This document shows positions 1 through 15,886 of a DNA stretch of 20,772 nt, piece by piece. The stretch's first letter is position 1, and the number at the start of each line of letters is the position of its first letter. The notes beneath the pieces were generated by a model, which was not told where the DNA came from, ran no database searches, and saw nothing but the letters and a program-made list of their open reading frames with translations. Source of the stretch: a virus; the IMG/VR virus record IMGVR_UViG_3300012358_000010, positions 1 through 20,772 of that record. The stretch is one strand, 5' to 3'. The position numbers and the translations under genes are program-made.

Positions 1-565
1 CCAGTGTCTGCGCCAAAGCGCGTAGCTCGCCGTCGCCGATGCCGCTCGCGCGCAGCGCCTGCGCGATGCCGGCGGCGTTGTGCGTGAGCGTCGATGCCGG
101 CGCAGGCGGCGACGCATCGCTCCAGTCATCGGCGGCGCGCATGAACTCGCCGAGGCGACCGACCGCGGTGTTGAGCGCGGCGACCGCCGCCGTCTCGGGC
201 GCGCGGGGCGCAGCGCGCTCGGCGCCATCGGGCTCCGCGATTGGCGTTTGGCCGGGCGCATGGGCTTTTTCGCCGAAATAGCCGGGCGCGACCGCCTTCA
301 TGACGGACGGATTCAACGCCGCCGCCTGCGCCAGCGCGTCGGGAAGACCGGCCGCCGCAAGCGCGGCATACGTTTGCGCCGGCACACGCCGCTGCTCGTC
401 GAGGCGCGTCCCCTGCATCCAGCCCTCGAGCCCGCGGCCGATCGATTGCCCGACATTACCGCCTTGGAGCGCGCCGGCGAGGTAACCGAGGATCGCGTTG
501 TCGTTGAGCCCGCCGAGCAGCCCGCCGCGCGGCGCAGCGCCGGTCAAATCGAGAATTCCCGCCAT
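1..565 (-). CDS. phage internal-virion-like protein, 5' part (runs off left edge)
   Basis: An open frame begins with ATG at 565-563 and stays open for 188 codons to the window edge, so its C-terminus is not seen. AGGA lies about 8 bases upstream. The N-terminus is rich in Gly, Leu and Ala (MAGILDLTGAAPRGGLLGGL, then a GYLAGALQGGNVGQSIGRG stretch), followed by an Arg/Gln-rich segment and an Ala/Pro-rich linker near residues 100-130. This hydrophobic, Gly-rich head is common in internal virion and DNA-ejection proteins encoded at the end of podovirus structural modules. It reads in the same direction as the phage genes and would follow the 1994-3076 gene, although a host-like stretch lies between them. 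The family is not securely recognised and the role is inferred from position and composition. Confidence 0.6.
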   Translation of the reverse strand, partial: MAGILDLTGAAPRGGLLGGLNDNAILGYLAGALQGGNVGQSIGRGLEGWMQGTRLDEQRRVPAQTYAALAAAGLPDALAQAAALNPSVMKAVAPGYFGEKAHAPGQTPIAEPDGAERAAPRAPETAAVAALNTAVGRLGEFMRAADDWSDASPPAPASTLTHNAAGIAQALRASGIGDGELRALAQTL

Positions 566-646
566 GGTTTATTCCTGTTATGCGAATCTGGTTGATCTAG
601 CTCGGTGTCGGCTCTACGAAAGCGTATAGGCGCTAAGTTAAGGAAC

Positions 647-734
647 GTGTCCCGGGCGCAGCGCAGCACAAGCGATAAGCGCGTTACGCGCTTATGGCTC
701 CACTTCGTTTCGCGCTGCACCGCATCCGGGACAC
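647..734. repeat. palindromic repeat, family D (GTGTCCCGG...CCGGGACAC)
   Basis: Terminal GTGTCCCGG and CCGGGACAC form an inverted repeat, with inner arms built on GCGCAGCGCAGCAC and GCGCTGCACCGCATCC. A related double element lies at 13088-13203. It fills most of the gap upstream of the leftmost phage gene. Confidence 0.8.
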
Positions 735-784
735 CTGGCTAGGGCGTCATTCATAAATCGCGTTTGTCCGGCAATCACTCGCTG

Positions 785-824
785 ATGTCCGCATCACCCC
801 CGAAAGCGGCCGTATAGCGGACAT
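785..824. repeat. short inverted repeat ATGTCCGC...GCGGACAT
   Basis: Eight-base arms at 785-792 and 817-824 can form a hairpin. It lies about 100 bases downstream of the stop of the 922-1296 gene and could end that transcript, but there is no T-tract. It may equally be a fragment of a dispersed repeat. Confidence 0.4.
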
Positions 825-921
825 CGGTGGATGTCTCAAAAGTGCTATTAGCGGACTCATGCGCCGCAGCAAAAGGCACAAGCAGACTGTGACGCTTCGT
901 TGAAAGTGTATCTGCTCCCTT

Positions 922-1296
922 TCAAAAGAGTCCCGGCGGCAGGATCGCGCAACGAGTGGAAAACCGGGATAGATGCAATCCCGGATGATTCGGTTGTGGC
1001 GGATAGTCGAACCTCTCTTTCCAATTCGTGACCCCGCACCAATGTCCGCCACCGGTTTCGCCGGTATCGCCGTCGAGACTGCGATATTGAATTATGTTAT
1101 TGGGCACGCGGACCCACTCGTTATCGACCAACATGTCGACGCCGGCGGACGTGATCCGGTAATGCGCCGGATGGCAATCCGTTTCGTCGCAGCAGCTCGT
1201 CTCTCCAGACCGATCCATTAGTCCGGTATAGATGTCGTGGCCTTCCGCGCGTGCGGCGGCTAGGATGAGTATCGTAATCATCATCAAGGTTCGCAT
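922..1296 (-). CDS. small exported Cys-rich protein of unknown function
   Basis: This 124-residue protein begins MRTLMMITILILAAARAEG, a good signal peptide. The mature part has a Cys cluster (SCCDETDC), a VDMLVDNEWVRVPN segment, the line QYRSLDGDTGETGGGHWCG, and a late single Cys. This arrangement, with a CC-x4-C motif and a C-terminal HWCG, is typical of small exported proteins common in Bradyrhizobium relatives; no biochemical role is known to me. Upstream ATG/GTG codons would add 11 residues, but AGGG lies 8 bases before the ATG at 1296 and the signal peptide begins there, so this start was chosen. It does not resemble a phage gene and sits alone between two phage-like genes. A perfect CRP-type palindrome lies 108 bases upstream of the start. 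Confidence 0.75.
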   Translation of the reverse strand: MRTLMMITILILAAARAEGHDIYTGLMDRSGETSCCDETDCHPAHYRITSAGVDMLVDNEWVRVPNNIIQYRSLDGDTGETGGGHWCGVTNWKERFDYPPQPNHPGLHLSRFSTRCAILPPGLF

Positions 1297-1993: not shown

Positions 1994-3076
1994 TCAGCGT
2001 CCGGTGAACGAACCCGGCCCCATGAAGCCGTTGCTCAGCAGGCCGAAGAGCCCGCCGCCGAGTGCGCTCGCACCCATGCCCGCCAAACTCGTGCCGCCGG
2101 TGAGCGGCGCAAACGCGAGCGGCAACAGCGAGAGCGGGTTGAACGGTGTGGACGTCGTGGTCGCGCTCGTCTCGGTGCCTGATTTCTGCCCCGACGTGCT
2201 GCCCGCCTGCGCTCCCGTCTGCGTGCCCGCCGTCGTGGCGCTATAGGAGCTGCCCAGCCCCGCGATCGGCACGCCCATCTGCACGAGCGTTTGCAAAGTC
2301 GATAACGGGATGTTGCGGCGCGCGGCCTCGGCTGCGAGTTGCGTATTGAACGGATCGCTGGCGAAAGCCTGTCCCGTCTGCGCCACGCCGAGCCCGGCCT
2401 GGCGGTTGGCGAGCCGCGTCTGATCCAGATTTGAGAGCAATCCCGCCGTCGTGCCGCCGGCGCCATACAAGCTTCCGGCCGCGCCGAGCTGCCGCTCGCG
2501 CTCGGCGTTGTAGGGATTGGCGAACATCGGCGCCGTGCCCTCGGAAATGCCGCGCGCCAGGTTGTAGCCGTAGTTGCCGGCGCCGGACGGGTCGCGGCCC
2601 GATCCGGCATACATCGCTTTGAGGCGGTTTTCGACGTCGGTGCCGATCGTGCCGGTGACCGTGTTGAACCAGGGATTCTTGGCCGGATCGAGATAGTCGC
2701 CCTGCGCCGTCGGCGCCAAACGCGCGAGATATTGGTTGTAAGCATCAAGCGCAACCGGTGAGCGATCGGCGCCGCCGCCGGCGAGCAGGTCGGTGGCGAG
2801 CGAGGTCGCGCCCGGCAAAAACTGCCTGATATAGCCTGAGCTGTCGGCCAATCCCGTGAGCGCGCTCGATTCGGTCGGCGTGAGCGACGTCGCCGGCAAT
2901 TGCCCCTGCAGCTGCGCCAGGATGCCGGAAAGATAAGGCTGCGCCGCCGCCCAGGGATTCGTCGCGCCGCTCGACGCGCCGCTGGTTGCGCCGGTGCTGC
3001 CGCTCTGGAATTGCTGCAGCGAGTTCTGGTTGACCGCGCTGTTCGTGTCTTTGGTCTGTGTCGTGCCGCCCCTCAA
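1994..3076 (-). CDS. phage internal virion / DNA-ejection-like protein
   Basis: This 360-residue protein is assigned a TTG start at 3076 because AGGAG (3082-3086) lies 5 bases ahead. The longer GTG frame from 3121 would translate the palindromic repeat upstream and is rejected. The N-terminus is Ser/Thr/Gly/Gln-rich. The middle has a NPWFNTVTGTIGTDVENRLKAM segment and a GAGNYGYNLARGISEG segment, and the C-terminus is a Gly/Leu-rich hydrophobic stretch (PLSLLPLAFAPLTGG, GMGASALGGGLFGLL). The pattern of a NP-x-F block, a small-residue GSGR/GAGNYG block and a hydrophobic tail is typical of proteins encoded after the tail fibre in podovirus modules, thought to be internal or ejection proteins. 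No enzymatic motif is seen. Function is inferred; presence as a real gene is well supported. Confidence 0.75.
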   Translation of the reverse strand: MRGGTTQTKDTNSAVNQNSLQQFQSGSTGATSGASSGATNPWAAAQPYLSGILAQLQGQLPATSLTPTESSALTGLADSSGYIRQFLPGATSLATDLLAGGGADRSPVALDAYNQYLARLAPTAQGDYLDPAKNPWFNTVTGTIGTDVENRLKAMYAGSGRDPSGAGNYGYNLARGISEGTAPMFANPYNAERERQLGAAGSLYGAGGTTAGLLSNLDQTRLANRQAGLGVAQTGQAFASDPFNTQLAAEAARRNIPLSTLQTLVQMGVPIAGLGSSYSATTAGTQTGAQAGSTSGQKSGTETSATTTSTPFNPLSLLPLAFAPLTGGTSLAGMGASALGGGLFGLLSNGFMGPGSFTGR

Positions 3077-3081
3077 TCTTT

Positions 3082-3086
3082 CTCCT
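3082..3086 (-). promoter_or_regulatory. ribosome binding site that fixes a TTG start
   Basis: AGGAG on the minus strand lies between the end of repeat B (3087) and the TTG at 3076, with a 5-base spacer. It is the only good ribosome binding site near the N-terminus and decides against the in-repeat GTG start. Confidence 0.6.
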
Positions 3087-3176
3087 GTAGGGTGGGTTAG
3101 GCGCGAAGCGCCGTAACCCACCGTTCCTGCCGCGGCTCGACCGCCGCTGGGCTGCGCTTCGCTTAGCCCACCCTAC
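3087..3176. repeat. palindromic repeat, family B copy 1 (GTAGGGTGGG...CCCACCCTAC)
   Basis: Terminal GTAGGGTGGG and CCCACCCTAC are perfect inverted arms, with inner GCGCGAAGCGCCGTAACCCACC and GGGCTGCGCTTCGCTTAGCC. It fills the whole gap between the two neighbouring phage genes. Its right end supplies the last codons (Arg-Val-Gly) and TAA stop of the gene ending at 3163. A second copy is at 13524-13617. Confidence 0.9.
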
Positions 3177-3582
3177 GAAGCGGTTTTTCCAACAGCACCC
3201 GCGTGGTGCGATAATCCGGCAACAGCTTGAGCCAGCCGCGGCGGCCGTAGATGCGCATAGCGGCGCAGCCCTCGGCCTTGCCATAAGTCTCAAGGCCGGC
3301 GAGCAGATGCACCCATTGCCCGCGATCGCTGCCGCCGCAGGCGACGATCATGCAGAACTTCTCGCCGTTTGCTTGGCCCAATTCCGTTACGGCCGCCGCC
3401 TTGATCTTCTCGCCGTTCCAGGCGATCCACAGCAGCGCCGCGCCGTTGCGCACGGAATGCTCGACGTCGGCATAGCTCGAGAGGCGCCCCTTCTCCATCG
3501 CGGCCTTGATCAGCGGCGAGACGAAAGGCCAGAACTCGTGTACTTGCGCCGGATCGACGCAGATTAGACGACATAGCGTCAT
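3163..3582 (-). CDS. GNAT-fold / T7 Gp13-like phage protein
   Basis: This 139-residue protein starts at ATG 3582 (MTLCRLICVDPAQVHEFWPF). The ATG overlaps the TGA of the tail fibre gene as ATGA, so translation is coupled. Upstream in-frame codons lie inside the fibre gene and are shadows. It has an N-terminal helix pair, a WIAWNGEKIKAAAVTEL strand pair and a C-terminal GCAAMRIYGRRGWLKLLPDY segment, matching the GNAT-like layout of short phage proteins related to T7 Gp13. A canonical acetyl-CoA loop (R/Q-x-x-G-x-G/A) is not obvious, so catalysis is doubtful. The final residues RVG and the TAA stop come from repeat B. Its position between fibre and ejection genes fits a virion-associated role. 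Confidence 0.7.
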   Translation of the reverse strand: MTLCRLICVDPAQVHEFWPFVSPLIKAAMEKGRLSSYADVEHSVRNGAALLWIAWNGEKIKAAAVTELGQANGEKFCMIVACGGSDRGQWVHLLAGLETYGKAEGCAAMRIYGRRGWLKLLPDYRTTRVLLEKPLRRVG

Positions 3583-6101
3583 GTCGGCGGGATCCGCGCA
3601 TCGAGATAGATTTTCGCGTCCGATGCCGAGCCGTTCAGCTGGATCATCGTGCAATTGCCCGCCACGAGTCCGCTCGATCCGCTAAAATCAAGGCGCGTAT
3701 TGGTTTTCGTTGTTCCGCTGAAAGCCACGCCTGTACAGGCGTTCGCTGCCGAGGCGGACGCATTGACGCAGGCAAAGTCGCTGCCGGCGCTGACGCTGCC
3801 CGTCGGGGCAATCCGCATCGGCACACGGAACACGAGTGCGGCCAGCGCCTGAGTGGTCGAATATGCCTGCCCGACCGACACCGAACTGTTCGTGGCAAAC
3901 ACGTCGTACATCTGGAACAGCCAATCACAAAGGCGCTGTTCCAAGGGAAAGGGGCGGGCCGCGATCAGCGCCGTGCCGCTCCCGATTGAGAGGCCAACGC
4001 GTCCGATGTCCAGATTGGCCGCCTCCGCGCTGTCGGCCCAGAAGAAAACCAGCAGGTTGTTGAACGATGATCCAAGCGTCGCGTTCAGTGCGATTGTCGC
4101 AAGCGTATTCGCGCCTGGCGTCACCGAACCCGTCGCCGTGATCGTCAGGCTGGTCGATTTGAAGAAATTCCCCGCCGTGAAGGTGCCGCTCGTCCAGTCG
4201 TTGACCACATCGGTGGTCGGAGCGTCCGCCGTCCCGGTCCACTCAATGACCGCGTAACGGATCGTGTGCGCGGTGTTGATGCGGACGCGCGCCGTCAGCG
4301 TAACCGTCTGCCCACGAAGATGCTTGCACAGGTCTTTCGGGATCGGCTGGATTGCGCCAAAACGGTTCGAGCCCGCCTGCGCAAACCGCATCATGAACGG
4401 TGTGCCGTTCTCGACGTCCGTTAGCTGAGACGGTGTGATGTTGCCGCCCTGCGAGAGCGCGATCCATGGCGTCCAGGTGTAATTGTTGTCGCCGACAGCG
4501 GCGAGCGGCTTGTCGATGACCTGGCCGCTCGGATTGAGGATAGGGTTTTGATCGGCCAGATATTGCTCGGCCGCGAGCGCGTTCCCGTTTACATAGAGGC
4601 CCGTCGCGTTGAGCGTCCCGGCACCCTTGTCGCCACCGGTAGGCGCGCCGATTGCCATGCCGCCGTTGCTGTAAAGCGTGGTGTGAACAGCAGCGCGGAC
4701 GTTGTCATAGAACCACCAATCGATGTTGGCCTGTGATGCCCGGACCTGAATTTGCCACTTGCTCGTTCCGCTTTTCTGCCATTGCTGAACGATGTCGAAA
4801 GAAGCGTTTTTCTGATTGAAGGACTGAAATACGCCGTTGGTGAGAGCGTCTCCCTCCATGGTCAAGTCAGCGTCCACAAAGAACGCCTGACCTTTGGAAG
4901 TCGGACTCCCTACCGCATGTGTGTTGAAGGCGAAGACTGAGGCATTGTTTGACGGCCGATTGATCGTAAATTCATCGACCAGCGCTGACCCAGCGGCCCA
5001 ATACGCGCCGACAGGAGCGGTGCTGTCCCATTTCTGAATGACAAATGACAGCGGGCGAAATTCGCCGCCGGCCTTCTTCCCCACCCGGACAACGTGCGCC
5101 TCGAATTGTGGACCGATGCCAGAGCTCGGGTGGTAATGGGTCTCCCACCCCATCCCGATGCCGTCGTCGAGGCCATTTCGAGAGGACCAGTTATTGCTGA
5201 GATTGTAGCCGAAGCCCCAGACTTCGTTGTTTCGGCCATCGAACTGTCCGGGGTTCGATTGGTGCGCGAGATTTGTCCAATCACCTTGCGCCGCTGCAGT
5301 GTCCGTCTTGGGCGCGGTCTGTAGGATGCCGGCTGTGCCGCTGTTGTAGAGCGTGACGATCGTCTGGAAGGACCCGGCAACCGTGGCGTTGGTCGTGTTG
5401 GTCAACTGCCAGCTTGCTTCCGGCGCGAACTCCCCGAGCGTGGTCCCGGCTTTGTCCTTCAATGTGAAGGCGAACGCGCCAGTATTGACGATGGAAAAAG
5501 GAACGCCGACCGGCACGCTGTTGACCGCGTTCATGGCCGGCAGCGTGACCGACTTGCCCGATGCCGTCATGCTGATGAGCGATGTGGCGGCAAGCGGATT
5601 GTCGAGCGCAAGATCAACCGCAGACGTGAAGCTTTTGGTCGCTTCCTGGAACCTGGTGAACGCCGCGCGGTTGAGCACGCTCGTCAGGTTTGCCATCGTG
5701 TCGATGAAGGTGGCGCCGAGCACATAGCCGCCCGTCACCGCGCTGGCCCAAGCGGAGTTCGAGCCTTGCAGGTCGATGTGCGTCCCGTCGATAACGGTGA
5801 TGGGCCAGTTGCCGTCGACATTCGCCGACCCGCTGCCGGCGACGGCCCAACGCTGGCCGGTTTGCATCCGGGCCGTCGTGGTGACGGTCAAACGGATGAG
5901 GCCGCTGCCGTTGTCCGCAGCCGCGCCGATCGAGTAGCCGTCGTGGTCGCCGATCGCGATGGCGCCGGCGCGGCCGCTGAGCCAGGTCAGAAACGCAGCC
6001 GAATTGTTGGCGATCATCCCGCCCGCGGCGGAGGAATAAACCTGCGTGGTCGGGTTCGTGTCGCCGACAATCCACATCCAATCGCTGACGTTGTAGCTCA
6101 T
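3579..6101 (-). CDS. phage tail fibre / receptor-binding protein
   Basis: This 840-residue protein starts at ATG 6101 (MSYNVSDWMWIVGDTNPTTQ). The ATG overlaps the stop of the upstream gene as ATGA; the longer frame to 6332 is a shadow of that gene. Residues about 1-165 look like an attachment domain, followed by repetitive beta-rich sequence. A block near residues 260-450 (WGFGYNLSNNW, GMGWETHYHP, GPQFEAHVV) resembles exposed fibre domains. A linker GAGTLNATGLYVNGNALA precedes a jelly-roll-like carbohydrate-binding C-terminal part (ALSQGGNITPSQLTDVENG to FPLEQRLCDWLFQMYDVF). The linker and PFPLEQRLC block recur in fibres of short-tailed and siphoviral phages. Bases about 4700-5400 are visibly richer in A/T than the surrounding genes, suggesting an acquired receptor-binding section. 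No catalytic motif was recognised. Confidence 0.85.
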   Translation of the reverse strand: MSYNVSDWMWIVGDTNPTTQVYSSAAGGMIANNSAAFLTWLSGRAGAIAIGDHDGYSIGAAADNGSGLIRLTVTTTARMQTGQRWAVAGSGSANVDGNWPITVIDGTHIDLQGSNSAWASAVTGGYVLGATFIDTMANLTSVLNRAAFTRFQEATKSFTSAVDLALDNPLAATSLISMTASGKSVTLPAMNAVNSVPVGVPFSIVNTGAFAFTLKDKAGTTLGEFAPEASWQLTNTTNATVAGSFQTIVTLYNSGTAGILQTAPKTDTAAAQGDWTNLAHQSNPGQFDGRNNEVWGFGYNLSNNWSSRNGLDDGIGMGWETHYHPSSGIGPQFEAHVVRVGKKAGGEFRPLSFVIQKWDSTAPVGAYWAAGSALVDEFTINRPSNNASVFAFNTHAVGSPTSKGQAFFVDADLTMEGDALTNGVFQSFNQKNASFDIVQQWQKSGTSKWQIQVRASQANIDWWFYDNVRAAVHTTLYSNGGMAIGAPTGGDKGAGTLNATGLYVNGNALAAEQYLADQNPILNPSGQVIDKPLAAVGDNNYTWTPWIALSQGGNITPSQLTDVENGTPFMMRFAQAGSNRFGAIQPIPKDLCKHLRGQTVTLTARVRINTAHTIRYAVIEWTGTADAPTTDVVNDWTSGTFTAGNFFKSTSLTITATGSVTPGANTLATIALNATLGSSFNNLLVFFWADSAEAANLDIGRVGLSIGSGTALIAARPFPLEQRLCDWLFQMYDVFATNSSVSVGQAYSTTQALAALVFRVPMRIAPTGSVSAGSDFACVNASASAANACTGVAFSGTTKTNTRLDFSGSSGLVAGNCTMIQLNGSASDAKIYLDARIPPT

Positions 6102-6961
6102 ACGTACTCGCCACCGTGGCCGTCGATGATCCCGTCGGCATTGCCGGGGAAGAAGTTCGCCCCGCCGCCCTGGGTGAAGATCGTCCCGTTGCTCTCGACC
6201 TGAAACCGGCGGCCCGTCGCCGGGCCCGAGAAAACGCTGCCGTGCGCCCTGATCTGCCCCATCACCGCATAGGCGAAGGCGAAGGCGGAAAACGATGGAG
6301 TGCCTGTCAGCGTCACCAGTTGCCCGACGCATGTAACGACGCCGCCGGTCGAGGCGCCGAAGTGCCCATAGCCGGCATTACCGTTGATGACGTACCCGCC
6401 ATCGCTTGCCGGGAGGGCAATGACGATGTTGCCACCCGAGGATTCCGCGAGCAGGTGGAAGCCGCCGCAGGTGCCGAAATTGACCTTGCGGTTGATGACG
6501 ACCGTGCCGGCCGTCAGAACATCGATGCAATGTCCGCCGGCGCGGAACTCGACGCCGCCGATCGCGATCGTTGCGCCGTTTTGAACGACGATCCCGCTGT
6601 TGATGATAACGTTCGCCGGCGTGGCCGGGTCGCCGACGATCGTGACCGACCCGCCGATGAACGGGAAATTGAGCGAGAAGCCAGCGAATGTGCCGCTGCG
6701 CATCTGAATGGTGACGGCGAAGCCGTTGAGATCGAGCTTGAGGATCGAATCGATGGCCTTCTGGAGGGTCAGGAAGGCGCGGCTTGCGCTGTCGGCCTGT
6801 CCGTCGTTTGCATCGCTGCCGTCCGCGCGGACGTAATAGGTGCGAGTCGCGCTCAGGACCTCGCGCGTCGTGGCGTTGGATCGTCCCTCCTGCAATTGCC
6901 GGATCGCAAAGACGATGTTGTAGAGATTTTTCTCATCCGGCGAGAGCGTGCCGACGGTCAT
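6098..6961 (-). CDS. phage tail protein with pectin-lyase-like beta-helix
   Basis: This 287-residue protein starts at ATG 6961, with AGGAG 9 bases upstream. The N-terminal 45 residues (MTVGTLSPDEKNLYNIVFAI) form a helical head. Then YYVRADGSDANDGQADSASR and FLTLQKAIDSI follow, the usual opening of right-handed beta-helix proteins. Regular short strands continue (VTIVGDP, VVQNGATIAIGGVEF, NIVIALP). In phages these are tail appendages or spikes that bind or cut surface polysaccharide. No catalytic acid pair could be assigned, so it may be structural. Its TGA overlaps the ATG of the tail fibre gene, so the two are made together. Confidence 0.8.
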   Translation of the reverse strand: MTVGTLSPDEKNLYNIVFAIRQLQEGRSNATTREVLSATRTYYVRADGSDANDGQADSASRAFLTLQKAIDSILKLDLNGFAVTIQMRSGTFAGFSLNFPFIGGSVTIVGDPATPANVIINSGIVVQNGATIAIGGVEFRAGGHCIDVLTAGTVVINRKVNFGTCGGFHLLAESSGGNIVIALPASDGGYVINGNAGYGHFGASTGGVVTCVGQLVTLTGTPSFSAFAFAYAVMGQIRAHGSVFSGPATGRRFQVESNGTIFTQGGGANFFPGNADGIIDGHGGEYV

Positions 6962-6969
6962 ACGCCTAC

Positions 6970-7034
6970 GCTCCTGACGGAGCTACGGCGCACAAGTCCG
7001 CCATAGCCGAACGAAGTGAGGCGACGGCGGGTCA
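6970..7034. repeat. dispersed repeat, family F copy 1 (GTCCGCCATAGC...GGCGGGTCA)
   Basis: It shares GTCCGCC(A/G)TAGC and the terminal GGCGGGTCA with 9813-9882. It occupies the gap between the tail hub and beta-helix genes. The shared GGCGGGTCA includes the TGA stop of the hub gene, and the CTCCTGACGGAG hairpin at its other end carries the AGGAG of the beta-helix gene. Confidence 0.6.
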
Positions 7035-8510: not shown

Positions 8511-8515
8511 CCTAT

Positions 8516-8627
8516 GCTCCTCATGCTGAGGAGCCGCGCGCAGCGCGGCGTCTCGAAGCATGTCCCGAGACCGCGCGCGGCCGTCCTTCGAGACGCATCG
8601 CTGTCGCGATGCTCCTCAGGACGAGGC
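8516..8627. repeat. palindromic repeat, family A copy 1 (GCTCCTCATGCTGAGGAGC...)
   Basis: It contains the perfect hairpin GCTCCTCA-TGC-TGAGGAGC (8516-8534), GTCTCGAAGCATG, and an inverted half CTTCGAGACGC...GCTCCTCAGGACGAGG. Related copies lie at 9279, 10611, 11735 and 17566. Its left hairpin supplies the AGGAG ribosome binding site of the tail hub gene. Confidence 0.85.
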
Positions 8628-9254
8628 TCACGGCGTGACGCCCATCACCCGCACGGCGCCGGGCGCGCCGCCGCGCGTCTTGTGGTTGAGCTTGTCGAGC
8701 TCGTCGAAGATTTCGTCGCGGCGCGCCTTCCACAATGGCGCGCGCTCGTCGTTGACTCCGAACATTTCCGCTTCGACCAGCGAGCCGAACAGATAAAGGT
8801 CAGGATGCGCGGTCAGCAGCCAGTTTGTCTGCGTGCCATCGCCCGGCGCGAGCGTGGCGAGCGCGGGGATTTTCTGGAAATAGTCGAACTCGAGCGGGGT
8901 GGCGTCGAGGGGCCGCACCTTCAAGGTCGAGCCTTCGATGGTGAAGAGGCGCGGCACGTCCGCCGGCGAGGTGGGGTAAGCCGCCTGCAGGTAGGACGGA
9001 TGCACGTATTCGAGCTCGACTCGGGTCGAGCCGGTCCATGTCACGCGCCGCCAGGCAAGATAGTCGGATGGAAGCGCAACCGAGCCGTTGGACGGCGTCA
9101 GATTGGTCGAGGTCTCCTGCTGGCGCACGCGCAGCCGCCGATTGGCGCAGGCCTCGAACAGCGCGATGAACTCCGGCACGCGCGCCGTGAACAGCGTGTG
9201 GTCGAGCCAATTGCCGATCGCGGTCTGCAGCTCGGCATAGGTGGTGATGGCCAT
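8628..9254 (-). CDS. phage head-tail adaptor (connector) protein
   Basis: This 208-residue protein (MAITTYAELQTAIGNWLDHT) has the layout of podovirus/SU10-type adaptors. An N-terminal helical part (FIALFEACANRRLRVRQQET) is followed by VALPSDYLAWRRVTW, then strands (RLFTIEGSTLKVRPLDATPL). The signature block FDYFQKIPALATL...TNWLLTAHPDLYLFGSLVEA is followed by a C-terminal helix. The P-x-D-x-L and NWLL-x-x-x-PDLYL-x-G segments are what I rely on. It forms a ring below the portal and joins it to the tail hub; the hub gene follows directly, separated only by repeat A. The TGA stop abuts that repeat. No strong ribosome binding site is seen before the ATG at 9254. Confidence 0.8.
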   Translation of the reverse strand: MAITTYAELQTAIGNWLDHTLFTARVPEFIALFEACANRRLRVRQQETSTNLTPSNGSVALPSDYLAWRRVTWTGSTRVELEYVHPSYLQAAYPTSPADVPRLFTIEGSTLKVRPLDATPLEFDYFQKIPALATLAPGDGTQTNWLLTAHPDLYLFGSLVEAEMFGVNDERAPLWKARRDEIFDELDKLNHKTRGGAPGAVRVMGVTP

Positions 9255-9278
9255 GGCGCTATCCGGTCAGTTGTCTCG

Positions 9279-9462
9279 GTCCTCATCCTGAGGAGCGGGC
9301 GAAGCCCGCGTCTCGAAGGATGGCCACGGGCCTCATGCTTCGAGACGCGCGCTTCCTCATGGTGAGGTGCCCGCCCCCATCCCTTCGAGACGCGGTCTTC
9401 GGACCGCTCCTCAGGATGAGGGCGGGCCTCGAACCACGCGCGGCTCCTCAGCATGAGGACGA
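9279..9462. repeat. palindromic repeat, family A copy 2 (composite)
   Basis: Several A-type units are joined: TCCTCATCCTGAGGAGC, GTCTCGAAGGATG, CATGCTTCGAGACGC, CCTCATGGTGAGGTG, CTTCGAGACGCGGTC and GGCTCCTCAGCATGAGGA. It sits between the adaptor gene and the upstream small gene. Confidence 0.85.
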
Positions 9463-9469
9463 GCCAGCA

Positions 9470-9534
9470 GTAGCCCGCATGAGCGAAGCGATATGCGGGG
9501 CACCCCGGATGTCGCTGGCGCTCATCCGGGCTAC
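9470..9534. repeat. palindromic repeat, family C copy 1 (GTAGCCCGGAT type)
   Basis: Terminal GTAGCCCGCATGAGCG and CGCTCATCCGGGCTAC are near-perfect inverted arms. The last arm supplies the TAG stop codon of the gene ending at 9531. The same family is inserted in frame in the portal gene at 15260-15355. Confidence 0.9.
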
Positions 9535-9812
9535 GAGGTCTTCAAATGCGCCCAATCCGGATCGGCGAGCTTGCGGGCGACGAGCTCGTCGAACTCGCGC
9601 GTGAACAGGCGCAGGCCAATATTGCCGCGCGCGTGCTCCTCGTTGAGCCACTGGACCAGAAGCACGTTGGGGATTTGCGCGACGTGGCGGCCCCAATCGC
9701 TGCGCTGCGGCTCTGCCCGCAGCGCCTTGTTGCGCTCGAGGATCGGCTCGACGTCCTGCGTCGTGCTGGCGATGACCGTGCCGGTATGATCGAGCAGGAT
9801 GTCGGTGCGCAT
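9531..9812 (-). CDS. small conserved phage structural-module protein
   Basis: This 93-residue protein (MRTDILLDHTGTVIASTTQD) has the layout of a small phage protein usually encoded between capsid and adaptor genes in SU10/P22-like podoviruses. The layout is an N-terminal strand pair, a TQDVEPILERNKAL helix, a H-x-A-x-x-P-x-V-L-V-x-x-W/Y-x-N-E block (HVAQIPNVLLVQWLNEE), and a C-terminal helix ending LADPDWAHLKT. Its role is unknown; capsid or connector assembly is an inference from position. The TAG stop lies in repeat C. The likely ribosome binding site GAGG lies inside repeat F upstream, so both ends of this gene are set by repeats. Confidence 0.65.
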   Translation of the reverse strand: MRTDILLDHTGTVIASTTQDVEPILERNKALRAEPQRSDWGRHVAQIPNVLLVQWLNEEHARGNIGLRLFTREFDELVARKLADPDWAHLKTS

Positions 9813-9882
9813 CCGTCTTCGCCTCGCTTTGCTCAGCTTCGCCGGACTTGTCCGCCGTAGCGCGCAGCGCGAAGGCGGGTCA
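9813..9882. repeat. dispersed repeat, family F copy 2
   Basis: It shares GTCCGCCGTAGC and AAGGCGGGTCA with 6970-7034. The GGTCA end holds the TGA stop of the gene ending at 9880, and the other end lies directly against the start codon at 9812. Confidence 0.6.
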
Positions 9883-10173
9883 CGACATTTCGGTGATGCT
9901 GATCTTGCCGGCGGTCCCGGCCTGCAGCACCGCCGCCTTCTGTCCCGGCGTCACGGTGAAATAATCCACCTGGTTGGCGCCGAGCAGCATGCTCGACGTC
10001 GTCGCCGTCGGCGTCCCGTCGCCGATCTCGACGAAGGCCGGCTGGCCTTCGGTCGCGACGCGGATCTGGAACGTCTCCGCACCGAAAGCGGCCGTCGCTT
10101 GCGACGTGCCGCTCATGGTGAAGGTCGTATTGGTGCCAGCCCGCGATGCGTGCTGTTTGTCGAAAGCGGCCAT
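9880..10173 (-). CDS. small phage head protein (possible decoration protein)
   Basis: This 97-residue protein starts at ATG 10173 (MAAFDKQHASRAGTNTTFTM), with AGGAG 7 bases upstream; the longer frame to 10278 is a shadow of the preceding gene. It is strand-rich (TFQIRVATEGQPAFVEIGDG, YFTVTPGQKAAVLQAGTAG, ISITEM) with no Cys or enzyme motif, fitting a small beta-sandwich capsid decoration or head-completion protein. Only 10 bases separate it from the preceding gene, so the two form a pair downstream of the major capsid gene. The specific family was not recognised. Confidence 0.65.
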   Translation of the reverse strand: MAAFDKQHASRAGTNTTFTMSGTSQATAAFGAETFQIRVATEGQPAFVEIGDGTPTATTSSMLLGANQVDYFTVTPGQKAAVLQAGTAGKISITEMS

Positions 10174-10183
10174 TAGCCCACTC

Positions 10184-10552
10184 CTAGGCGCGCTCGAACA
10201 CGGCGTACATCTGCCCGCCGATATTCGAGCCGGATGCACCGGAAGGCGTGAACGAGACGACGTCGTCTTCGACCACATCGCGGGCCGCCGTCGGCGCCGC
10301 GCTGAAATGCTGCCCGGCGGCCGCGCCGGAGACAGTGACGGTGATCGAGCCGCCGGTGATCGCGGTGCCGTTGATGGCGGTGGCGATGGTGGCGTCGGCG
10401 GTGCTGATCGTGCCTTGCGTAACGCAGCCGACCTTAAGGACGCGGCCGCGGAACGGGGCGCGGATATAGGCCGCCTCCGGCGAGGCGCCGATCGAGCGCG
10501 AGAACGCGTGGACGGCCGCTTCGCGCAGCGGATGATTGGCGGGAAGTGCCAT
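10184..10552 (-). CDS. phage head-associated protein, likely beta-sandwich
   Basis: This 122-residue protein (MALPANHPLREAAVHAFSRS) follows the major capsid gene and has AGGAG 7 bases before its ATG. After a short helical N-terminus come regular beta segments (YIRAPFRGRVLKVGCVTQG, SITVTVSGAAAGQHF, DDVVSFTPSGAS) with Thr/Ala/Gly-rich turns, as in head fibre or decoration proteins. It begins MALPAN, close to the MALPTN of the capsid gene, but the rest is unrelated. Its role is inferred from position and predicted strands. Confidence 0.65.
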   Translation of the reverse strand: MALPANHPLREAAVHAFSRSIGASPEAAYIRAPFRGRVLKVGCVTQGTISTADATIATAINGTAITGGSITVTVSGAAAGQHFSAAPTAARDVVEDDVVSFTPSGASGSNIGGQMYAVFERA

Positions 10553-10610
10553 GATGATCTCCTATTGGAAGGGCACCGCAGGCGGCGCCCACCACGTGAC
10601 AGTCTCTCCC

Positions 10611-10720
10611 CCTCATGCTGAGGAGGGCGCGCAGCGCCCGTCTCGAAGCATGCGGGGCACGGTGCCCGCCCTCATCCTTCGAGACGCGGTCCTACGGACC
10701 GCTCCTCAGGACGAGGGCGG
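10611..10720. repeat. palindromic repeat, family A copy 3
   Basis: It is built of CCTCATGCTGAGGAG, GCGCGCAGCGCCCGTCTCGAAGC, CCTTCGAGACGCGGTCC and GCTCCTCAGGACGAGGGCGG. It fills the gap between the major capsid gene stop (10738) and the next start (10552). Confidence 0.85.
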
Positions 10721-10737
10721 AGATAGAGCGGTGGTGC

Positions 10738-11694
10738 TTACGACGTGGTGTTGTCGAACACGCCGCCCGAGGATTTCTCGTTTCGGGCTACGAGCGCATA
10801 TTCCGACAGCATCTGCCGGCGCTCGCTGTCGCCGGTGCGCGCGAGCGGGATCGACACCATGCGGCGCCCATTGAGGTAGGCGATCGCCCACATCTCCATC
10901 TGCAGCACGAGCACGTCGCGCGCGCGCTGGAAACGGTTGGGCACGACCTTGAGCCGACCGAAGTCGGACTCATAGACGTCGACCGCGGCGACGATCTTCT
11001 TGGCTGAGGTGTCCTCGATCGGCGTGGCGCGGCCGGTAAAGGTCGAGAACGCCTGCTTGTTGAAGCCGCCGGTCATGATGATGTCGGGCTTGCCGCCGTT
11101 GTTCCAGATCGACTGCAGCACGGCCTTGAGGTTGGCCTCGATGAACGCGCGCTGCGTGCCGTCGGTGCGAGTGCCGGCGCCGTCGGCGGCCGAAGGATCG
11201 GCACCGGAGGCACCCTTCGACGTGTTGGTCTTGATCCACGACAACACCGAGGCGGTCTTGCGCGCGGTCGTGTCGTTGCCGGTCACCTTGGCCTGGTTGG
11301 TGCCGACGAGGATCGCCTCCATGTCGCGCTTGAGCTCGAGGCCCTTGAGCATCTCCTGGTAAGCGAGCTCGTCGTCGCGGCCGGCGTGGTCGACGGCGCG
11401 TTGCGTGCCGGTGACGCGGGCGACCTTGTCGGAGATTTGGCAGATGTTGCCGAGCCGCACGGTCGGAGTCACCGCGTCGGTGGTGGCGTCGTCGCCTTCG
11501 AGCACCGCGTTGGCGGTGTCGGCGGCGGCGAGCGCTTGCGTCTGCCATTCGTGGTTCACGGCCGACGCCTTCTCGCGCTCGATGCCGGTCATGAACGGCG
11601 TGTCGGTCGGATCGATGCGGTAGATCACATCGGAGAGATCTTCGCGGTTGCCGATCGCCTCATAGGTGGCGAACGTATTGGTGGGGAGTGCCAT
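10738..11694 (-). CDS. major capsid protein, SU10/DUF5309 type
   Basis: This 318-residue protein begins MALPTNTFATYEAIGNREDL, with AAAGGA 9 bases upstream. The N-terminal DPTDTPFMTGIEREKASAVNHEWQTQAL block is the hallmark I use for the DUF5309/SU10-type HK97-fold capsid family. Other blocks are ICQISDKVARVTGTQRAVDH, ELKRDMEAILVGTNQAKV (spine helix), GKPDIIMTGGFNKQAFSTF, and a C-terminal VYESDFGRLKVVPNRFQRAR domain. It would form the icosahedral shell with the scaffold-like protein encoded just upstream. The length is normal, without frameshift. This capsid differs from that of the RcGTA gene transfer agent. Confidence 0.88.
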   Translation of the reverse strand: MALPTNTFATYEAIGNREDLSDVIYRIDPTDTPFMTGIEREKASAVNHEWQTQALAAADTANAVLEGDDATTDAVTPTVRLGNICQISDKVARVTGTQRAVDHAGRDDELAYQEMLKGLELKRDMEAILVGTNQAKVTGNDTTARKTASVLSWIKTNTSKGASGADPSAADGAGTRTDGTQRAFIEANLKAVLQSIWNNGGKPDIIMTGGFNKQAFSTFTGRATPIEDTSAKKIVAAVDVYESDFGRLKVVPNRFQRARDVLVLQMEMWAIAYLNGRRMVSIPLARTGDSERRQMLSEYALVARNEKSSGGVFDNTTS

Positions 11695-11734
11695 GGCTAA
11701 AAGTCCTTTCTGATAAGCGGACGCACCGTGTCCG

Positions 11735-11923
11735 CCTCATGCTGAGGAGCGGCGCGTGGTTCGAGGCCCGCCCTCATCCTTAGGAGCGGTCCGAAGGACC
11801 GCGTCTCGAAGGATAAGGGCGGGCACCTCACCATGAGGATGCGCCGCGTCTCGAAGCATGAGGCGGGGCGCCCTCGCCCTTCGAGACGCGTCGCTTTCGC
11901 GACGCTCCTCAGGACGAGGGCGG
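11735..11923. repeat. palindromic repeat, family A copy 4 (composite)
   Basis: At least three A units are joined in alternating orientation: CCTCATGCTGAGGAGCGGC, GGTCCGAAGGACCGCGTCTC, CACCTCACCATGAGGATG, CTTCGAGACGC and GCTCCTCAGGACGAGGGCGG. It lies between the scaffold gene and the capsid gene. Confidence 0.85.
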
Positions 11924-11949
11924 ACCGATCGTCCGCAGTTCGTCGTGTG

Positions 11950-13071
11950 TTACCGGGCCGCCCGGCGCGCGCGCAGCAAGGCCGCGGCGTCCTTCAAGCT
12001 GCCGGTTTGTTCGAGCCGTTCGGTGAGGTGTTGAACGCGCGCCTCGTCCGTGCCTGCACGGGCGGTGGCGGCGCCGGGCCGCTGAACCGGGGGAACGGGC
12101 CTAGTGGCCGCAGCCTTGGCTTTGGCCTGCGCCTCGCGCCAGAGCGTCGCGTCGCGGATCAGGAGCTGCACGCGGTGGTCGCGAAGGGAGAGGTCCTTCT
12201 GACCGTTCCACGATTGCGCCAGCTCCGCTTCGTCGAAACCCAGGTCGCTCAGCACGGCGAGCGCCTTTTTCTGCAGCTCGGCGGCTTTCGCCTCGTCCGC
12301 CATGTCGGGGACTTTCTCCTTGAAGAGATGGTCCTCGCGTTTGGCGAAGTCGGTGAACTGGGCAAGCTTCTCGACAACCTGCCGGTGCTGCGCCGCGAGC
12401 AGCTGCTGGCCGACCTCAGCGATCTTCTTTTGCTGCAGGTCCCAGAGCAAGTAGCGCGGCCAATCCTCGCGCGCCAAGCGCTCGACATCCGCCATCGACT
12501 TGATGTCGGCGAACTCGCCCGCCTGTTGGTTCTGCAGGGTTGCGAGAAGCTGCGGCAGTGCCGCTTCGTAGTGCTGCCTTGCCTGTTCCACCGTCTGCTC
12601 TTTGGCGCTGAGGCCCTTGAGCTTTTCGGCGGCTTCGTTCTGACGGCGGAGAAAATCGCTCTCGCGTGACCGCTCGCGCTCGGCAAGACGTTCCTGCGTC
12701 GCGCGGGGGAGGCTCGCAAAGAGCTCCTTGTCCTCCTTCGTCCAAGACCTCGGCGGCTCGATGGGCGGCGGCTCGTCGGCCGCCGGATCGGTGCCTTCAG
12801 TCTTCTCACCAGGATCCTGCGCGTTCGCAGGAGTGGCGGCGTCCGTTGCATCAACGGTCGATTCTGTTGCAGCACCCGGCACTGCCGTTGCGGCGCGCTC
12901 GGAAGCTGTTGCATCTGTGTCACTCGGCTTGCGATGCCGCAATTTGGTGAGCATCGCGGCCGCTTCCGATGTGCTGATGCGTGTCGGCGTATCGGCCGGC
13001 GCGGTGACTTCAACGGCGTAAGGCACTGCGCTGTCGGCGCCCGAAGCGCCAACGTCGGTGGCAACGTCCAT
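11950..13071 (-). CDS. phage capsid scaffold-like protein
   Basis: This 373-residue protein starts at ATG 13071, with GAGAGGA 4-5 bases upstream. The N-terminal third is low-complexity and rich in Ala, Thr, Asp and Pro, ending DEPPPIEPPRSWTKEDKEL. The rest is strongly helical and charged, with likely coiled coils (RATQERLAERERSRESDFLR, KLKGLSAKEQTVEQARQHYE) and a basic C-terminus (RARRAAR). A disordered acidic head, a long helical middle and a basic tail are typical of phage scaffolding proteins, whose basic tail binds the capsid protein. The gene immediately precedes the major capsid gene, as expected. No protease motif is seen. Confidence 0.75.
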   Translation of the reverse strand: MDVATDVGASGADSAVPYAVEVTAPADTPTRISTSEAAAMLTKLRHRKPSDTDATASERAATAVPGAATESTVDATDAATPANAQDPGEKTEGTDPAADEPPPIEPPRSWTKEDKELFASLPRATQERLAERERSRESDFLRRQNEAAEKLKGLSAKEQTVEQARQHYEAALPQLLATLQNQQAGEFADIKSMADVERLAREDWPRYLLWDLQQKKIAEVGQQLLAAQHRQVVEKLAQFTDFAKREDHLFKEKVPDMADEAKAAELQKKALAVLSDLGFDEAELAQSWNGQKDLSLRDHRVQLLIRDATLWREAQAKAKAAATRPVPPVQRPGAATARAGTDEARVQHLTERLEQTGSLKDAAALLRARRAAR

Positions 13072-13087
13072 GATGTCCTCTCAATTT

Positions 13088-13203
13088 GTGTCCCGGATGC
13101 GGTGCAGCGCGACAGCGGTGCACCGCTGATCCGGGACCGTTACAGATTGTGGCGGTCCCGGGTCTGCAGCGCACCACTTCGTGCTGCGCTGCGCCCGGGA
13201 CAC
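13088..13203. repeat. palindromic repeat, family D, double element
   Basis: Two adjacent units are seen, GTGTCCCGGATGCGGTGCAG...CCGGGACC (13088-13137) and GGTCCCGGG...GTGCTGCGCTGCGCCCGGGACAC (to 13203). They fill the gap between the small gene ending at 13212 and the scaffold start at 13071. Confidence 0.8.
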
Positions 13204-13211
13204 GAGAGCAT

Positions 13212-13490
13212 TTAAGCCGCCAATTTCGCCAGCCGATCGAGCTCGGCTTGGGCAAGCTTGCCGTTATTGGCCACGATAATGAGATGATCCTTCACCAAGC
13301 CGATGACCTGCACCGCGAGCCAAAGTCGCTCGCGCGCATCGGTGTCGCGCGCAACGGTATTGCGCCAGCCGGCGATGTAATCGGCCTCGAGCCGCGTGAA
13401 GATATCCTTCATCAAGTCGCTCCCGAGCAGCTCCTTGGCGCGCACGCCGCGCGCGATCGCAGTCTCGAGCTTGTCGTCGATCATGGTCAT
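13212..13490 (-). CDS. small helical phage protein between portal and scaffold genes
   Basis: This 92-residue protein (MTMIDDKLETAIARGVRAKE) is predicted to be all helical (MKDIFTRLEADYIAGWRNTV, RERLWLAVQVIGLVKDHLII), with a hydrophobic central helix and a TAA stop 8 bases short of repeat D. Small helical proteins commonly lie between portal and scaffold genes in such phages, often of unknown role. ATG 13490 or ATG 13484 could be the start; neither has a strong ribosome binding site. The family was not named with confidence. Confidence 0.65.
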   Translation of the reverse strand: MTMIDDKLETAIARGVRAKELLGSDLMKDIFTRLEADYIAGWRNTVARDTDARERLWLAVQVIGLVKDHLIIVANNGKLAQAELDRLAKLAA

Positions 13491-13523
13491 GGCGTTTCAA
13501 AGTCTTGTACGGCGGATTGTTTC

Positions 13524-13617
13524 GTAGGGTGGGCTAAGGCGCGTGAGCGCCGCAGCCCACCGGCGGTATTGCCGCGCGGATGGAACGGTGGGCTGCGCTT
13601 CGCTTAGCCCACCCTAC
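13524..13617. repeat. palindromic repeat, family B copy 2
   Basis: Ends GTAGGGTGGGC and GCCCACCCTAC match copy 1 at 3087-3176, as do the inner GGGCTGCGCTTCGCTTAGCC bases. It supplies the last codons (Arg-Val-Gly) and TAA stop of the portal gene. Confidence 0.9.
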
Positions 13618-15886
13618 AAGCTTTGGCGTCGCGCACGATGCGCTTGGCCGCGTCGGCACGTTTGAGCTGCTCGGTCAGCTCGAGGATCGGACGCAGCATC
13701 GGATGCTCCGCAGGCACGCCCTCGCCGGAGGCACCGCCCGCGGCAGTTGATCCGCCGCCGTTCACGAGCGTCTCGGCAAAGGATTGCGCCATGTCCTGCT
13801 GATGGCGTTCGCGCGCGATCTGCAGGTCGAGCAGCTTCAACTCCTTCTCGAGCGCGAATTTTTCCCGCTCGAAGGCGAGCTGCGCCTCGAGCTTCATCTT
13901 CTGGTGCGCGGCGTCGGTCTCGATCTTGGCCTTCTCGGCCGCCGCCTTGGCCGCGATCTCCGCCTGCTTCGGGTCGGCCGGGGGCGTCAACGGCGCTGAG
14001 GCTCTATCTGTGGGGTTCACCGGCGCCCCCGGCGCCGTGAAGAAAGCGTCCACGTTCTTGTGGCCGGCGAGCTTCACCAGCTCCTTGGCCGAATGGTAGA
14101 GGTTTTTGGCGCTGACCAGACCGGCGGCGATCGCCTCCTTCTGCGCGGCGATGATCAGCTGCAGATGCGCCAGCTGCTCGCTCTTCGACCCGGTGCCGAG
14201 CCCGACATTGATGGTCATATCGGCCCGCGCTCTCCAGTCTCTCGGATCAACAGTGACCCACTGATTGCGCAGCCGCACGGTCTGCGCCTGCGAGCCGTGC
14301 TTGCGGATCGTGGCGTGCAACAGCGAGAAGAGATCGCGGATGCCCGTCTCGGCGAAGATGCGGGCGATCAGCTTCACCTTGGCCTGGCTCGCGTTGAACA
14401 TCTGGTTGGCGATGGTCGCCACCTGGTTCTGCAGCGCGTTGGGATCGACCCCCTGCCCTTGCCGCGACACGCCGGTGCGCCACTCGCGCGTGGCGTCCTG
14501 ATATTGCAGCAGCGGAAAGACGTCGCCGCCGATGTCGGGATGCTTGAGCACGGTGAGCCCGCCCGGCATCTTGGTGCGCACGATCCCGCCCGGGCGCGAG
14601 ACGAGAAGATCATCGAGCGTGGTCTCGGTGGCGTGGCTCTCCGGCACTTCGGTGCGCGGGTTGTTGGCGAGATAGGCGTTGTCGAGCAGGGCGCGCAGCA
14701 GCGCCGTCTTGATGCGCTGGATGTCCATCACCAGATCGGCGATCGAGCGGCCGAAAAATCGGTGTGTGACGATGACCGGCGTCATCGCCGCGAACGGGAT
14801 GACGTCCTCGCGCACCACGTCGGGCCGCCCATCCCGCAAGAGAACTTCGCCCTCCTCGCCGGCCGTGGTGACGCGGTAGAGCGCAGCCTCGCCGGCGCCG
14901 TCATAGTCCATGCGCACATAGTGCTCGGTGATGCGGATCAGCCGGCTCGCCTCGTTGAGCCCGTCGTCGCCTTGGCGCAGCGTCGACTCGTTGACCGTGT
15001 CGCGCGCCTGCTCCTCGATGGTGTGCGACTGCGTATAAGACGGCAGTTTTTGCACCTGCTCGCGGTCGTAGCCTTGGGCGATGAGTTGCGACTGCGTGCG
15101 GAACACGTCGTGGAAGCAATAGTCCGCGTCCTTGATCGAGCGTGCGCGCCGGCTGATGCCGAACTCCTCGGGCGTGACGCCCTCGACCCGGGCGCATTCC
15201 TTGGTGCGGCGGATTTCGATGGTGACATCGTGCAGCTTGGGGCGCGGCGCGGCCTGTTCGTAGCCCGGATGAGCGCCAGCGACATCCGGGGCAGTTTCGC
15301 CGCGCGGCACGAGTCCCGGATTTCCGCCCGCTTGCGCGGGCGTCATCCGGGCTACAAGCGGAGCATCGCGCTCCGTGTGCTCTACAATCTCCACTCCCGG
15401 CTGCGCAACGATCAGCGCAAAGGCATCGTCGGGCTGGTCGAGATAGGTCTCGCGCTCGACCTCCGTCCGGCACTCCCACCACACCTTGACCACGCCGACT
15501 TTCGACAGCAGCGCATCCTTGATGAAGGAATAGAGCACCAGGAAGCCGTTGTTCTGCTGCATGAAGACGTGGTTGACGTAATCGGTCTCCTGCTCGGCGG
15601 CGGCCACGTCCTCCGGCCCGACCGGGGCAAACCGCACCACCTCGTCGCCCGAGGCGAAAATCTCCATCAGCGGCGGCATCAGGCCTTCGATGGTGTCGGC
15701 GACGTCGCTCGAGACGGCTTTGGAACGTCCGTCCGGGGCCGGCATGTCTTTCGACATGTCGCCCATGTAATAGTTGAGCGCAGACGCGCGTTCGTCGGAG
15801 AGCTTCGATGCGGCCATCGCCGAAAGCGCGTCATAGCGCTCGGCGGACAGCAGCGCCTTGAGATCGATCGCGGACATTTTCGGCAT
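13604..15886 (-). CDS. phage portal protein, P22/SU10 type, with in-frame repeat insertion
   Basis: This 760-residue protein starts at ATG 15886. Blocks include KDMPAPDGRSKAVSSDVADT, EGLMPPLMEIFASGDEVVRF, YVNHVFMQQNNGFLVLYSFI, DALLSKVGVVKVWW, EEFGISRRARSIKDADYCFH, FGRSIADLVMDIQRIKTALL, and a C-terminal coiled coil (residues about 640-700). These are the usual features of P22/SU10-type portals, the twelve-subunit ring through which DNA enters and leaves the head. Residues 178-209 (VARMTPAQAGG...GAHPGY) are not portal sequence: they are encoded by a 96-bp palindromic repeat inserted in frame between EHTERDAPL and EQAAPRPKLH. The final residues CRVG and TAA come from repeat B. No terminase gene is seen upstream. 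The frame is open throughout; whether the protein still works is unknown. Confidence 0.88.
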   Translation of the reverse strand: MPKMSAIDLKALLSAERYDALSAMAASKLSDERASALNYYMGDMSKDMPAPDGRSKAVSSDVADTIEGLMPPLMEIFASGDEVVRFAPVGPEDVAAAEQETDYVNHVFMQQNNGFLVLYSFIKDALLSKVGVVKVWWECRTEVERETYLDQPDDAFALIVAQPGVEIVEHTERDAPLVARMTPAQAGGNPGLVPRGETAPDVAGAHPGYEQAAPRPKLHDVTIEIRRTKECARVEGVTPEEFGISRRARSIKDADYCFHDVFRTQSQLIAQGYDREQVQKLPSYTQSHTIEEQARDTVNESTLRQGDDGLNEASRLIRITEHYVRMDYDGAGEAALYRVTTAGEEGEVLLRDGRPDVVREDVIPFAAMTPVIVTHRFFGRSIADLVMDIQRIKTALLRALLDNAYLANNPRTEVPESHATETTLDDLLVSRPGGIVRTKMPGGLTVLKHPDIGGDVFPLLQYQDATREWRTGVSRQGQGVDPNALQNQVATIANQMFNASQAKVKLIARIFAETGIRDLFSLLHATIRKHGSQAQTVRLRNQWVTVDPRDWRARADMTINVGLGTGSKSEQLAHLQLIIAAQKEAIAAGLVSAKNLYHSAKELVKLAGHKNVDAFFTAPGAPVNPTDRASAPLTPPADPKQAEIAAKAAAEKAKIETDAAHQKMKLEAQLAFEREKFALEKELKLLDLQIARERHQQDMAQSFAETLVNGGGSTAAGGASGEGVPAEHPMLRPILELTEQLKRADAAKRIVRDAKACRVG
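15260..15355. repeat. palindromic repeat, family C copy 2, inside the portal gene
   Basis: Arms GTAGCCCGGATGA (15260-15272) and TCATCCGGGCTAC (15343-15355) are perfect inverted repeats. The 96-bp length is exactly 32 codons, and the portal frame reads through without a stop. Related copies are at 9470-9534 and 17370-17410. Confidence 0.92.

Follow-up and report, generated by a model that had tools for sequence, protein, structure and literature searches.

A host-resident SU10-type phage particle cluster, likely domesticated, from a soil relative of Bradyrhizobium

To our knowledge, the phage-derived particles that count as accepted cases of domestication for DNA exchange are few. RcGTA, the type I gene transfer agent (GTA), is a long-tailed particle of siphovirus type. 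For BaGTA, the type II agent of Bartonella, gene sizes have been published together with an overlap between the gene of the large terminase subunit (TerL) and the portal gene (PMC3610622), and its TerL group includes the Sulfitobacter phages pCB2047-C and NYA-2014a (PMC9662315). Among deposited phages, the nearest to the locus described here is ppBeUSDA76-2 (OP596614), a phage of Bradyrhizobium elkanii that has integrase, recombination and lysozyme genes, a TerL gene directly beside the portal and a compact late module. Our locus lies in IMG/VR record IMGVR_UViG_3300012358_000010, a 20.8-kb metagenome contig (20,772 bases; "the window" hereafter means this whole stretch) from an uncultured soil relative of Bradyrhizobium, and is a SU10-type short-tailed phage module with portal, scaffold, major capsid protein (MCP), adaptor, nozzle, fibres and ejection proteins. 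The window is likely part of a domesticated SU10-type particle cluster long inherited in the host chromosome: core particle genes are under purifying selection, host repetitive extragenic palindromic (REP) sequences have accumulated between the genes, and genes of the host are found both inside the cluster and next to it. In Bradyrhizobium, a related cluster forms a vertically inherited locus with its core particle genes intact.

The assignment of the module rests on the SU10 Pfam families of portal, MCP and adaptor, which occur in the order of a SU10-type late module, and on a nozzle-type tail protein after the adaptor, a second mark of such modules; scaffold and nozzle match head/packaging families of PHROGs (Table 1). 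Every module gene in the window is on the minus strand and all particle open reading frames (ORFs), called with a simple codon-usage script, are open. The original prediction, made from the letters before any database search, had described the portal, scaffold, capsid, adaptor, hub, fibre and ejection genes as full length and the particle as of SU10/P22 type and distinct from RcGTA; both descriptions hold, the gene at the left edge being partial. That contig edge falls within the module, in an ejection-protein gene, so that completeness on this side is beyond judgement, and the right side stops short of the TerL position. A contig from a different metagenome (L014) matches the window at 99.98% across an 11.8-kb overlap.

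Selection was estimated as the ratio of nonsynonymous to synonymous divergence (dN/dS, NG86) on pairs with a common history, with six relatives (L010, L013, L015, L016, L027 and L051) as partners of the window. Ratios were 0.11-0.17 for the portal (0.16 against L010), and 0.16-0.18 for the MCP; the scaffold gave 0.23-0.27 and the 92-aa gene 0.19-0.31. Most core genes are single open frames among the viral contigs. Values well below 1 had been predicted for a module whose function is kept, and those of portal and MCP bear this out.

The chromosomal setting of the window lineage is marked by lip, a lipoprotein-like gene. It precedes the portal both in the window and in four relatives with portals 83-84% identical to that of the window (L010, L011, L013 and L027). 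The genome G159, in which searches for portal and nozzle gave no match, has lip (76%) with a conserved upstream block and, on the same contig, a major facilitator superfamily (MFS) gene (82%) that is the counterpart of the MFS gene flanking TerL in L010; since G159 keeps both, lip is a host gene. The gene order in L010 is MFS, TerL, lip, portal, an arrangement not expected from simple reinfection at an att site; the module thus surrounds lip in L010, whereas in the window it lies beside this gene. Judged by lip, the window is closer to G159 than to L010, and loss of an ancestral module from G159 is therefore the simplest history, incompleteness of this metagenome-assembled genome being an alternative cause of the missing genes. 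A REP-rich G159 contig, considered as a candidate module, proved not to be one. Neither the window nor the region upstream of TerL in L010 yielded an integrase or att sites, within contigs that end there and a window too short to exclude an integrase; the picture of a single-strain element flanked by both, which would have spoken against domestication, was thus not found. Host repeat families and the same host neighbours in lineages that differ by ~16% in the portal agree with the long residence originally predicted.

TerL lies upstream in L010, L013 and Bradyrhizobium. The idea that it is missing from the window lineage was dropped, given that in L010 and L013 lip is preceded by a TerL gene of a different type. 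Three TerL types occupy the same slot of related modules (L010:4027-5184, L143:9321-10607 and L139:14087-15628, the third inferred from its position only), which suggests terminase replacement among them. In close relatives, unrelated genes also stand in other seams (L027:6018-6872, L013:8947-11875, L016:5820-6765), with insertions after the MCP and between the 132-aa and 93-aa genes.

Eleven Bradyrhizobium genomes were examined over 40-80 kb, and there most clusters occupy one chromosomal neighbourhood (G362 and G543 are rearranged), bounded on one side by Nramp transporter, malic enzyme (read from sequence) and arginase-family genes and on the other by CoA-transferase, acyl-CoA dehydrogenase and flavin reductase genes. 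The same-locus occurrence in related strains that the original prediction had proposed looking for is thus found, in a related cluster. TerL, both portal parts, the 92-aa gene, MCP, small head genes, adaptor, nozzle and ejection protein are retained at high coverage where sequence reaches (the G003 nozzle aligns as two pieces), and core particle genes are full length at dS ~0.6-1.1, with many unrelated genes between them. Median dN/dS of the particle genes is 0.08-0.26 (most genes <0.2), overlapping the 0.03-0.18 of the flanking genes, and particle-gene amino-acid distances track those of the flanks (r = 0.84 over 52 non-independent pairs). The MCP tree places the resident Bradyrhizobium sequences (25 rows, support 97/86), the window group (98/85) and the group of ppBeUSDA76-2 apart, with short branches within resident clades. 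As in a GTA, the Bradyrhizobium cluster is inherited vertically at a conserved position; in the window lineage the shared host neighbour lip is good evidence of such inheritance, on few contigs. The particle genes are under purifying selection while resident, with lesions in some relatives. No integrase or replication gene was found among the G266 ORFs scanned, and the open-access literature gave no paper on this locus. The resident locus also contains genes of other kinds: a WHH/colicin-type nuclease, an Imm11 immunity gene and an Ivy-type inhibitor (L144:1737-2732, L143:6091-6744, L143:18609-19256). A C-terminal motif shared among BTAi1 genes was discarded, being seen in BTAi1 only.

Repeats are concentrated between the particle genes. 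Between 1994 and 15886 nine gaps exceed 30 nt, and seven of these contain repeats (3122-3162, 8562-8627, 9255-9530, 10553-10737, 11695-11949, 13072-13211 and 13491-13603), none being detected in 6962-7031 and 9813-9879; an eighth repeat-bearing gap, directly upstream of the portal (15887-16073), holds a copy of the element D1. The count of eight in the original prediction, all placed between the portal and position 1994, holds as these seven plus the upstream one; the two in-frame REP pieces within the portal gene had been missed. Intergenic DNA makes up only 8.7% of 1994-15886. Of six stretches in this interval with matches in host contigs from outside the module, one lies within the portal gene and the other five are intergenic entirely or for the most part. 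The repeats belong to families of the host: exact matches to the palindrome CTTCGAGACGC..GCTCCTCAGGATGAGG number 36 in one Bradyrhizobium genome, with 8 more in BTAi1 and 4 in G159, against none for its reversed-pattern controls. GTAG/CGTC-tagged REPs have been published for Bradyrhizobium and others as lying between genes, sometimes inside ORFs, and donating stop codons (PMC3733652), and the window copies agree in tags, intergenic position, occasional presence in ORFs and stop-codon donation, one repeat providing the stop codons of both the portal and the 163-aa gene. D1, a 77-bp element, occurs in model searches in 7-8 copies each at module-unrelated places of G159, G174 and G144, often between convergent genes, and is therefore a dispersed host element; a role as module promoter (single orientation, TTGAC, conserved spacing) was rejected in view of these copies. 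D1 copies often lie 70-190 bp past a stop codon. An Rfam search gave no match. Elsewhere in the window, a 114-nt stretch is duplicated at 95% (19395-19508 and 20438-20551), and one of the two copies falls where the C93 peptidase gene ends.

The REP pieces within the portal gene fall in the single variable loop of an alignment of 13 portals (residues ~174-216 of the window protein), and the content of this loop differs by lineage: GTAG-type REP pieces in the window, the CTTCGAGACGC family in L010/L013 and L027, and a different repeat in L015. L016 has a REP match in the loop stretch, the loop itself not being resolved by the frame check, and in the distant relative L044 the loop has four residues. 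An AlphaFold model of the portal, with a mean pLDDT of 47 overall, places the insert between two strands as an unordered loop. Insert-bearing portal genes are open across the loop in several lineages, which argues for selection on the reading frame; the one frameshift among them, of -1 nt in L027, lies elsewhere in the gene. The Bradyrhizobium portal is encoded by two ORFs (residues ~1-175 and 218-690) 50 bp to 8 kb apart, a split that coincides with the repeat-carrying loop of the window lineage, and in ~9 further viral contigs the portal is in two frames with the break at the loop. We found no account, in the literature searched, of repeated REP capture in one phage portal loop. Among the Bradyrhizobium loci L131-L150 and L193-L212, the split at one loop is seen in ~22 genomes, the intervening DNA of up to 8 kb containing other genes and both parts being open in most. 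In L018, L019 and L022 the loop encodes palindromic sequence of GCGAATAGCGAA..TTCGCTATTCGC type, a family not found among the host contigs examined.

Table 1. Features of the window (positions in the 20,772-base stretch).
Feature	Position	Strand	Evidence
Partial gene, second ejection-type protein	1..565	-	open ORF at contig edge; clusters with the gene after the ejection protein in L032
Ejection/internal virion-type protein, 375 aa	1994..3121	-	clusters with same-position genes of ppBeUSDA76-2 and Bradyrhizobium
Conserved module gene, 163 aa	3163..3654	-	phrog_25629
Fibre-type protein, 917 aa	3579..6332	-	phrog_27782
Tail-fibre-like protein, 287 aa	6098..6961	-	phrog_9851, weak
Nozzle/hub protein, 509 aa	7032..8561	-	phrog_3287 6e-69; solved phage nozzle chains matched
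SU10-type adaptor, 208 aa	8628..9254	-	PF24175 5e-29
Module gene, 93 aa	9531..9812	-	phrog_3982
Module gene g132, 132 aa, fast evolving	9880..10278	-	comparison of relatives, dN/dS
Module gene g122, 122 aa, fast evolving	10184..10552	-	comparison of relatives, dN/dS
SU10-type MCP, 318 aa	10738..11694	-	PF17236 7e-99
Scaffold protein, 373 aa	11950..13071	-	phrog_3927 1.5e-21
Module gene, 92 aa	13212..13490	-	phrog_8161
SU10-type portal protein, 760 aa	13604..15886	-	PF23899 2e-196
Two GTAG-type REP pieces, in frame, portal hairpin loop	15256..15357		repeats I5, I17; alignment A1; host-contig matches of loop DNA
GTAG-type repeat with stop codon of the 163-aa gene	3145..3176		repeat family D15, 97%; ORF ends
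REP-type palindromes in/around nozzle/adaptor gap	8512..8635		repeat search, host matches
REP palindrome cluster, adaptor/93-aa gap, including GTAG REP 9503-9536	9272..9536		repeat search, host matches
REP palindromes, gap beside MCP	10603..10731		repeat search, host matches
REP palindromes, MCP/scaffold gap	11731..11928		repeat search, host matches
Repeat pair, also at 646-734	13085..13204		inverted repeats I15, I16, 100%; host matches
GTAG-type repeat with portal stop codon	13586..13617		D15; ORF end
D1 copy 3, dispersed host element, directly upstream of portal	16016..16092	-	model R1, 75 bits
Methyltransferase-like gene between D1 copies, not at this place in relatives	16074..17204	-	weak Pfam Methyltransf_11/25
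Host REP palindromes upstream of methyltransferase-like gene	17237..17743		repeat search
D1 copy 2	17253..17329	-	model search
D1 copy 1	17751..17827	-	model search
lip, lipoprotein-like host gene	17843..18310	-	upstream of portal in L010, L011, L013, L027; present in G159
Host gene, 99 aa, partner of lip	18354..18653	-	conserved DNA block with G159 and L010
Transglutaminase-like cysteine peptidase (C93), host-like	19362..20264	-	PF06035; 45-51% homologues in Bradyrhizobium

Several observations weigh against a domesticated cluster. A related MCP is present in only ~31 of 266 Bradyrhizobium genomes; portal and nozzle gave no match in the close relative G159; and G111, the nearest genome with a portal piece, has a portal stop at residue 135, beside unrelated genes. 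In the window itself g122 and g132 evolve fast (dN/dS 0.49-0.85). Among relatives, the MCP of L013 lacks 31 nt and the portal of L027 one, a portal shift is common to L047 and L063, the scaffold of L051 is shifted and the MCP of L061 has a gap; these may be real lesions or assembly errors. With the cut portal of G111 and the absent genes of G159, they point to a module that can also decay or be lost. Neutral dN/dS together with disrupted genes in relatives had been named in advance as telling against a kept function; dN/dS is low in the conserved genes, and lesions occur in some relatives. The cluster is, moreover, known from genes alone, no particle or DNA transfer having been seen, the window does not reach TerL, and its lineage is represented by metagenome contigs that are not all independent, several probably coming from one population.

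An ordinary old prophage in slow decay, functional until recently and with gaps that merely tolerate repeats, would account for the frameshifted or truncated genes of some relatives, for the close relative without portal or nozzle and for the patchy occurrence in Bradyrhizobium. We consider it improbable, because neutral evolution would have removed or disrupted a prophage over the dS at which the 11 Bradyrhizobium genomes keep full-length core genes with co-diverging flanks; the window and L010, moreover, both adjoin lip and keep their portal under selection. More doubtful is the idea that the particle is kept not for DNA exchange but for attack or delivery, carrying toxins and immunity proteins that are encoded between its genes. 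A WHH/colicin-type nuclease gene does stand immediately after the portal C-part in G266, Imm11 and Ivy-type genes occur in the locus, and in G329, G332 and G362 the portal is followed by similar, nuclease-type proteins that share a SLVPVDHDPF-like motif at the N-terminus, but these genes are tied to the particle by position only, no toxin/immunity-type genes were found in the window, and TerL, portal and capsid, which a tail-only weapon would not need, are all kept. An active temperate phage family with a fixed integration site, its location reflecting site preference and the selection acting on the phage, is the least probable of the three: the integrase, TerL and compact late module of ppBeUSDA76-2 and the compact copies in G305, G310, G117 and G289 would suit it, but host genes stand between TerL and portal in L010, many unrelated genes separate the Bradyrhizobium particle genes, homologues of the ppBeUSDA76-2 early genes are absent from the Bradyrhizobium loci, divergence follows the flanking host genes and the resident clade is apart from ppBeUSDA76-2 in the MCP tree.

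Long residence with selection is thus the part of our reading that we hold with most confidence. A fixed place and working head, packaging, portal, tail and ejection genes, with no link to integration or early genes, fit a domesticated particle, and the host would keep the cluster since the particle is useful to it. The family has the full set of TerL, portal, capsid, adaptor, nozzle, fibres and ejection proteins, and the cluster most likely assembles a short-tailed DNA-packaging particle, one that might package host DNA and inject it into relatives, as a GTA-like device unrelated to RcGTA. DNA transfer is plausible as the function, and we favour it tentatively because it has most precedent for a particle that retains terminase and portal; the original prediction, of a GTA-like or other domesticated particle, accordingly stands as to residence and selection, and its step to a GTA is not shown. 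More speculatively, the Nitrobacteraceae, meaning Bradyrhizobium and its uncultured soil relatives, may carry an ancient SU10-type GTA of a new lineage, whose portal in Bradyrhizobium would be built from two separately encoded polypeptides, divided at the loop in which the window lineage has gathered host palindromes, and toxin and immunity genes may have moved in between. Particle DNA of B. japonicum S06B maps evenly over the genome and has been likened to GTAs (PMC10127595), a pattern that such a cluster could explain should S06B carry the locus. A short-tailed type kept intact across Bradyrhizobium, which includes soil bacteria and symbionts of legumes, would add one more example, in hosts that can be cultured, and the split portal with its repeat-filled loop leads to testable predictions on which portal changes are compatible with function.

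How the cluster relates to described particles can be read from its genes. ppBeUSDA76-2 has the same late-gene order and families, with a portal ~60% and an MCP 67% identical, and, like the Bradyrhizobium locus, a two-ORF portal, but one whose parts overlap. The SU10-like and Pa223-like short-tailed phages share the portal, MCP and adaptor Pfam families and a nozzle-type hub, and the window portal matches the solved portal chains 9nwm, 7sxk and 7z44; they differ in being free phages, mostly at 30-50% identity. With RcGTA the likeness lies in the concept, a particle cluster that is passed on vertically and maintained by purifying selection; a siphovirus-type head-tail set was not found, SU10 families being the sole Pfam matches of portal, MCP and adaptor. 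BaGTA is similar in that the genes after its portal have the sizes expected of scaffold, capsid and nozzle (our reading of the sizes in PMC3610622), resembling the SU10 layout, and in that the Bradyrhizobium TerL is 47% identical to TerL of the Sulfitobacter phages pCB2047-C and NYA-2014a. It belongs to another host and genomic setting, and by published gene sizes and shared TerL phage relatives it could be a cousin of the module described here.

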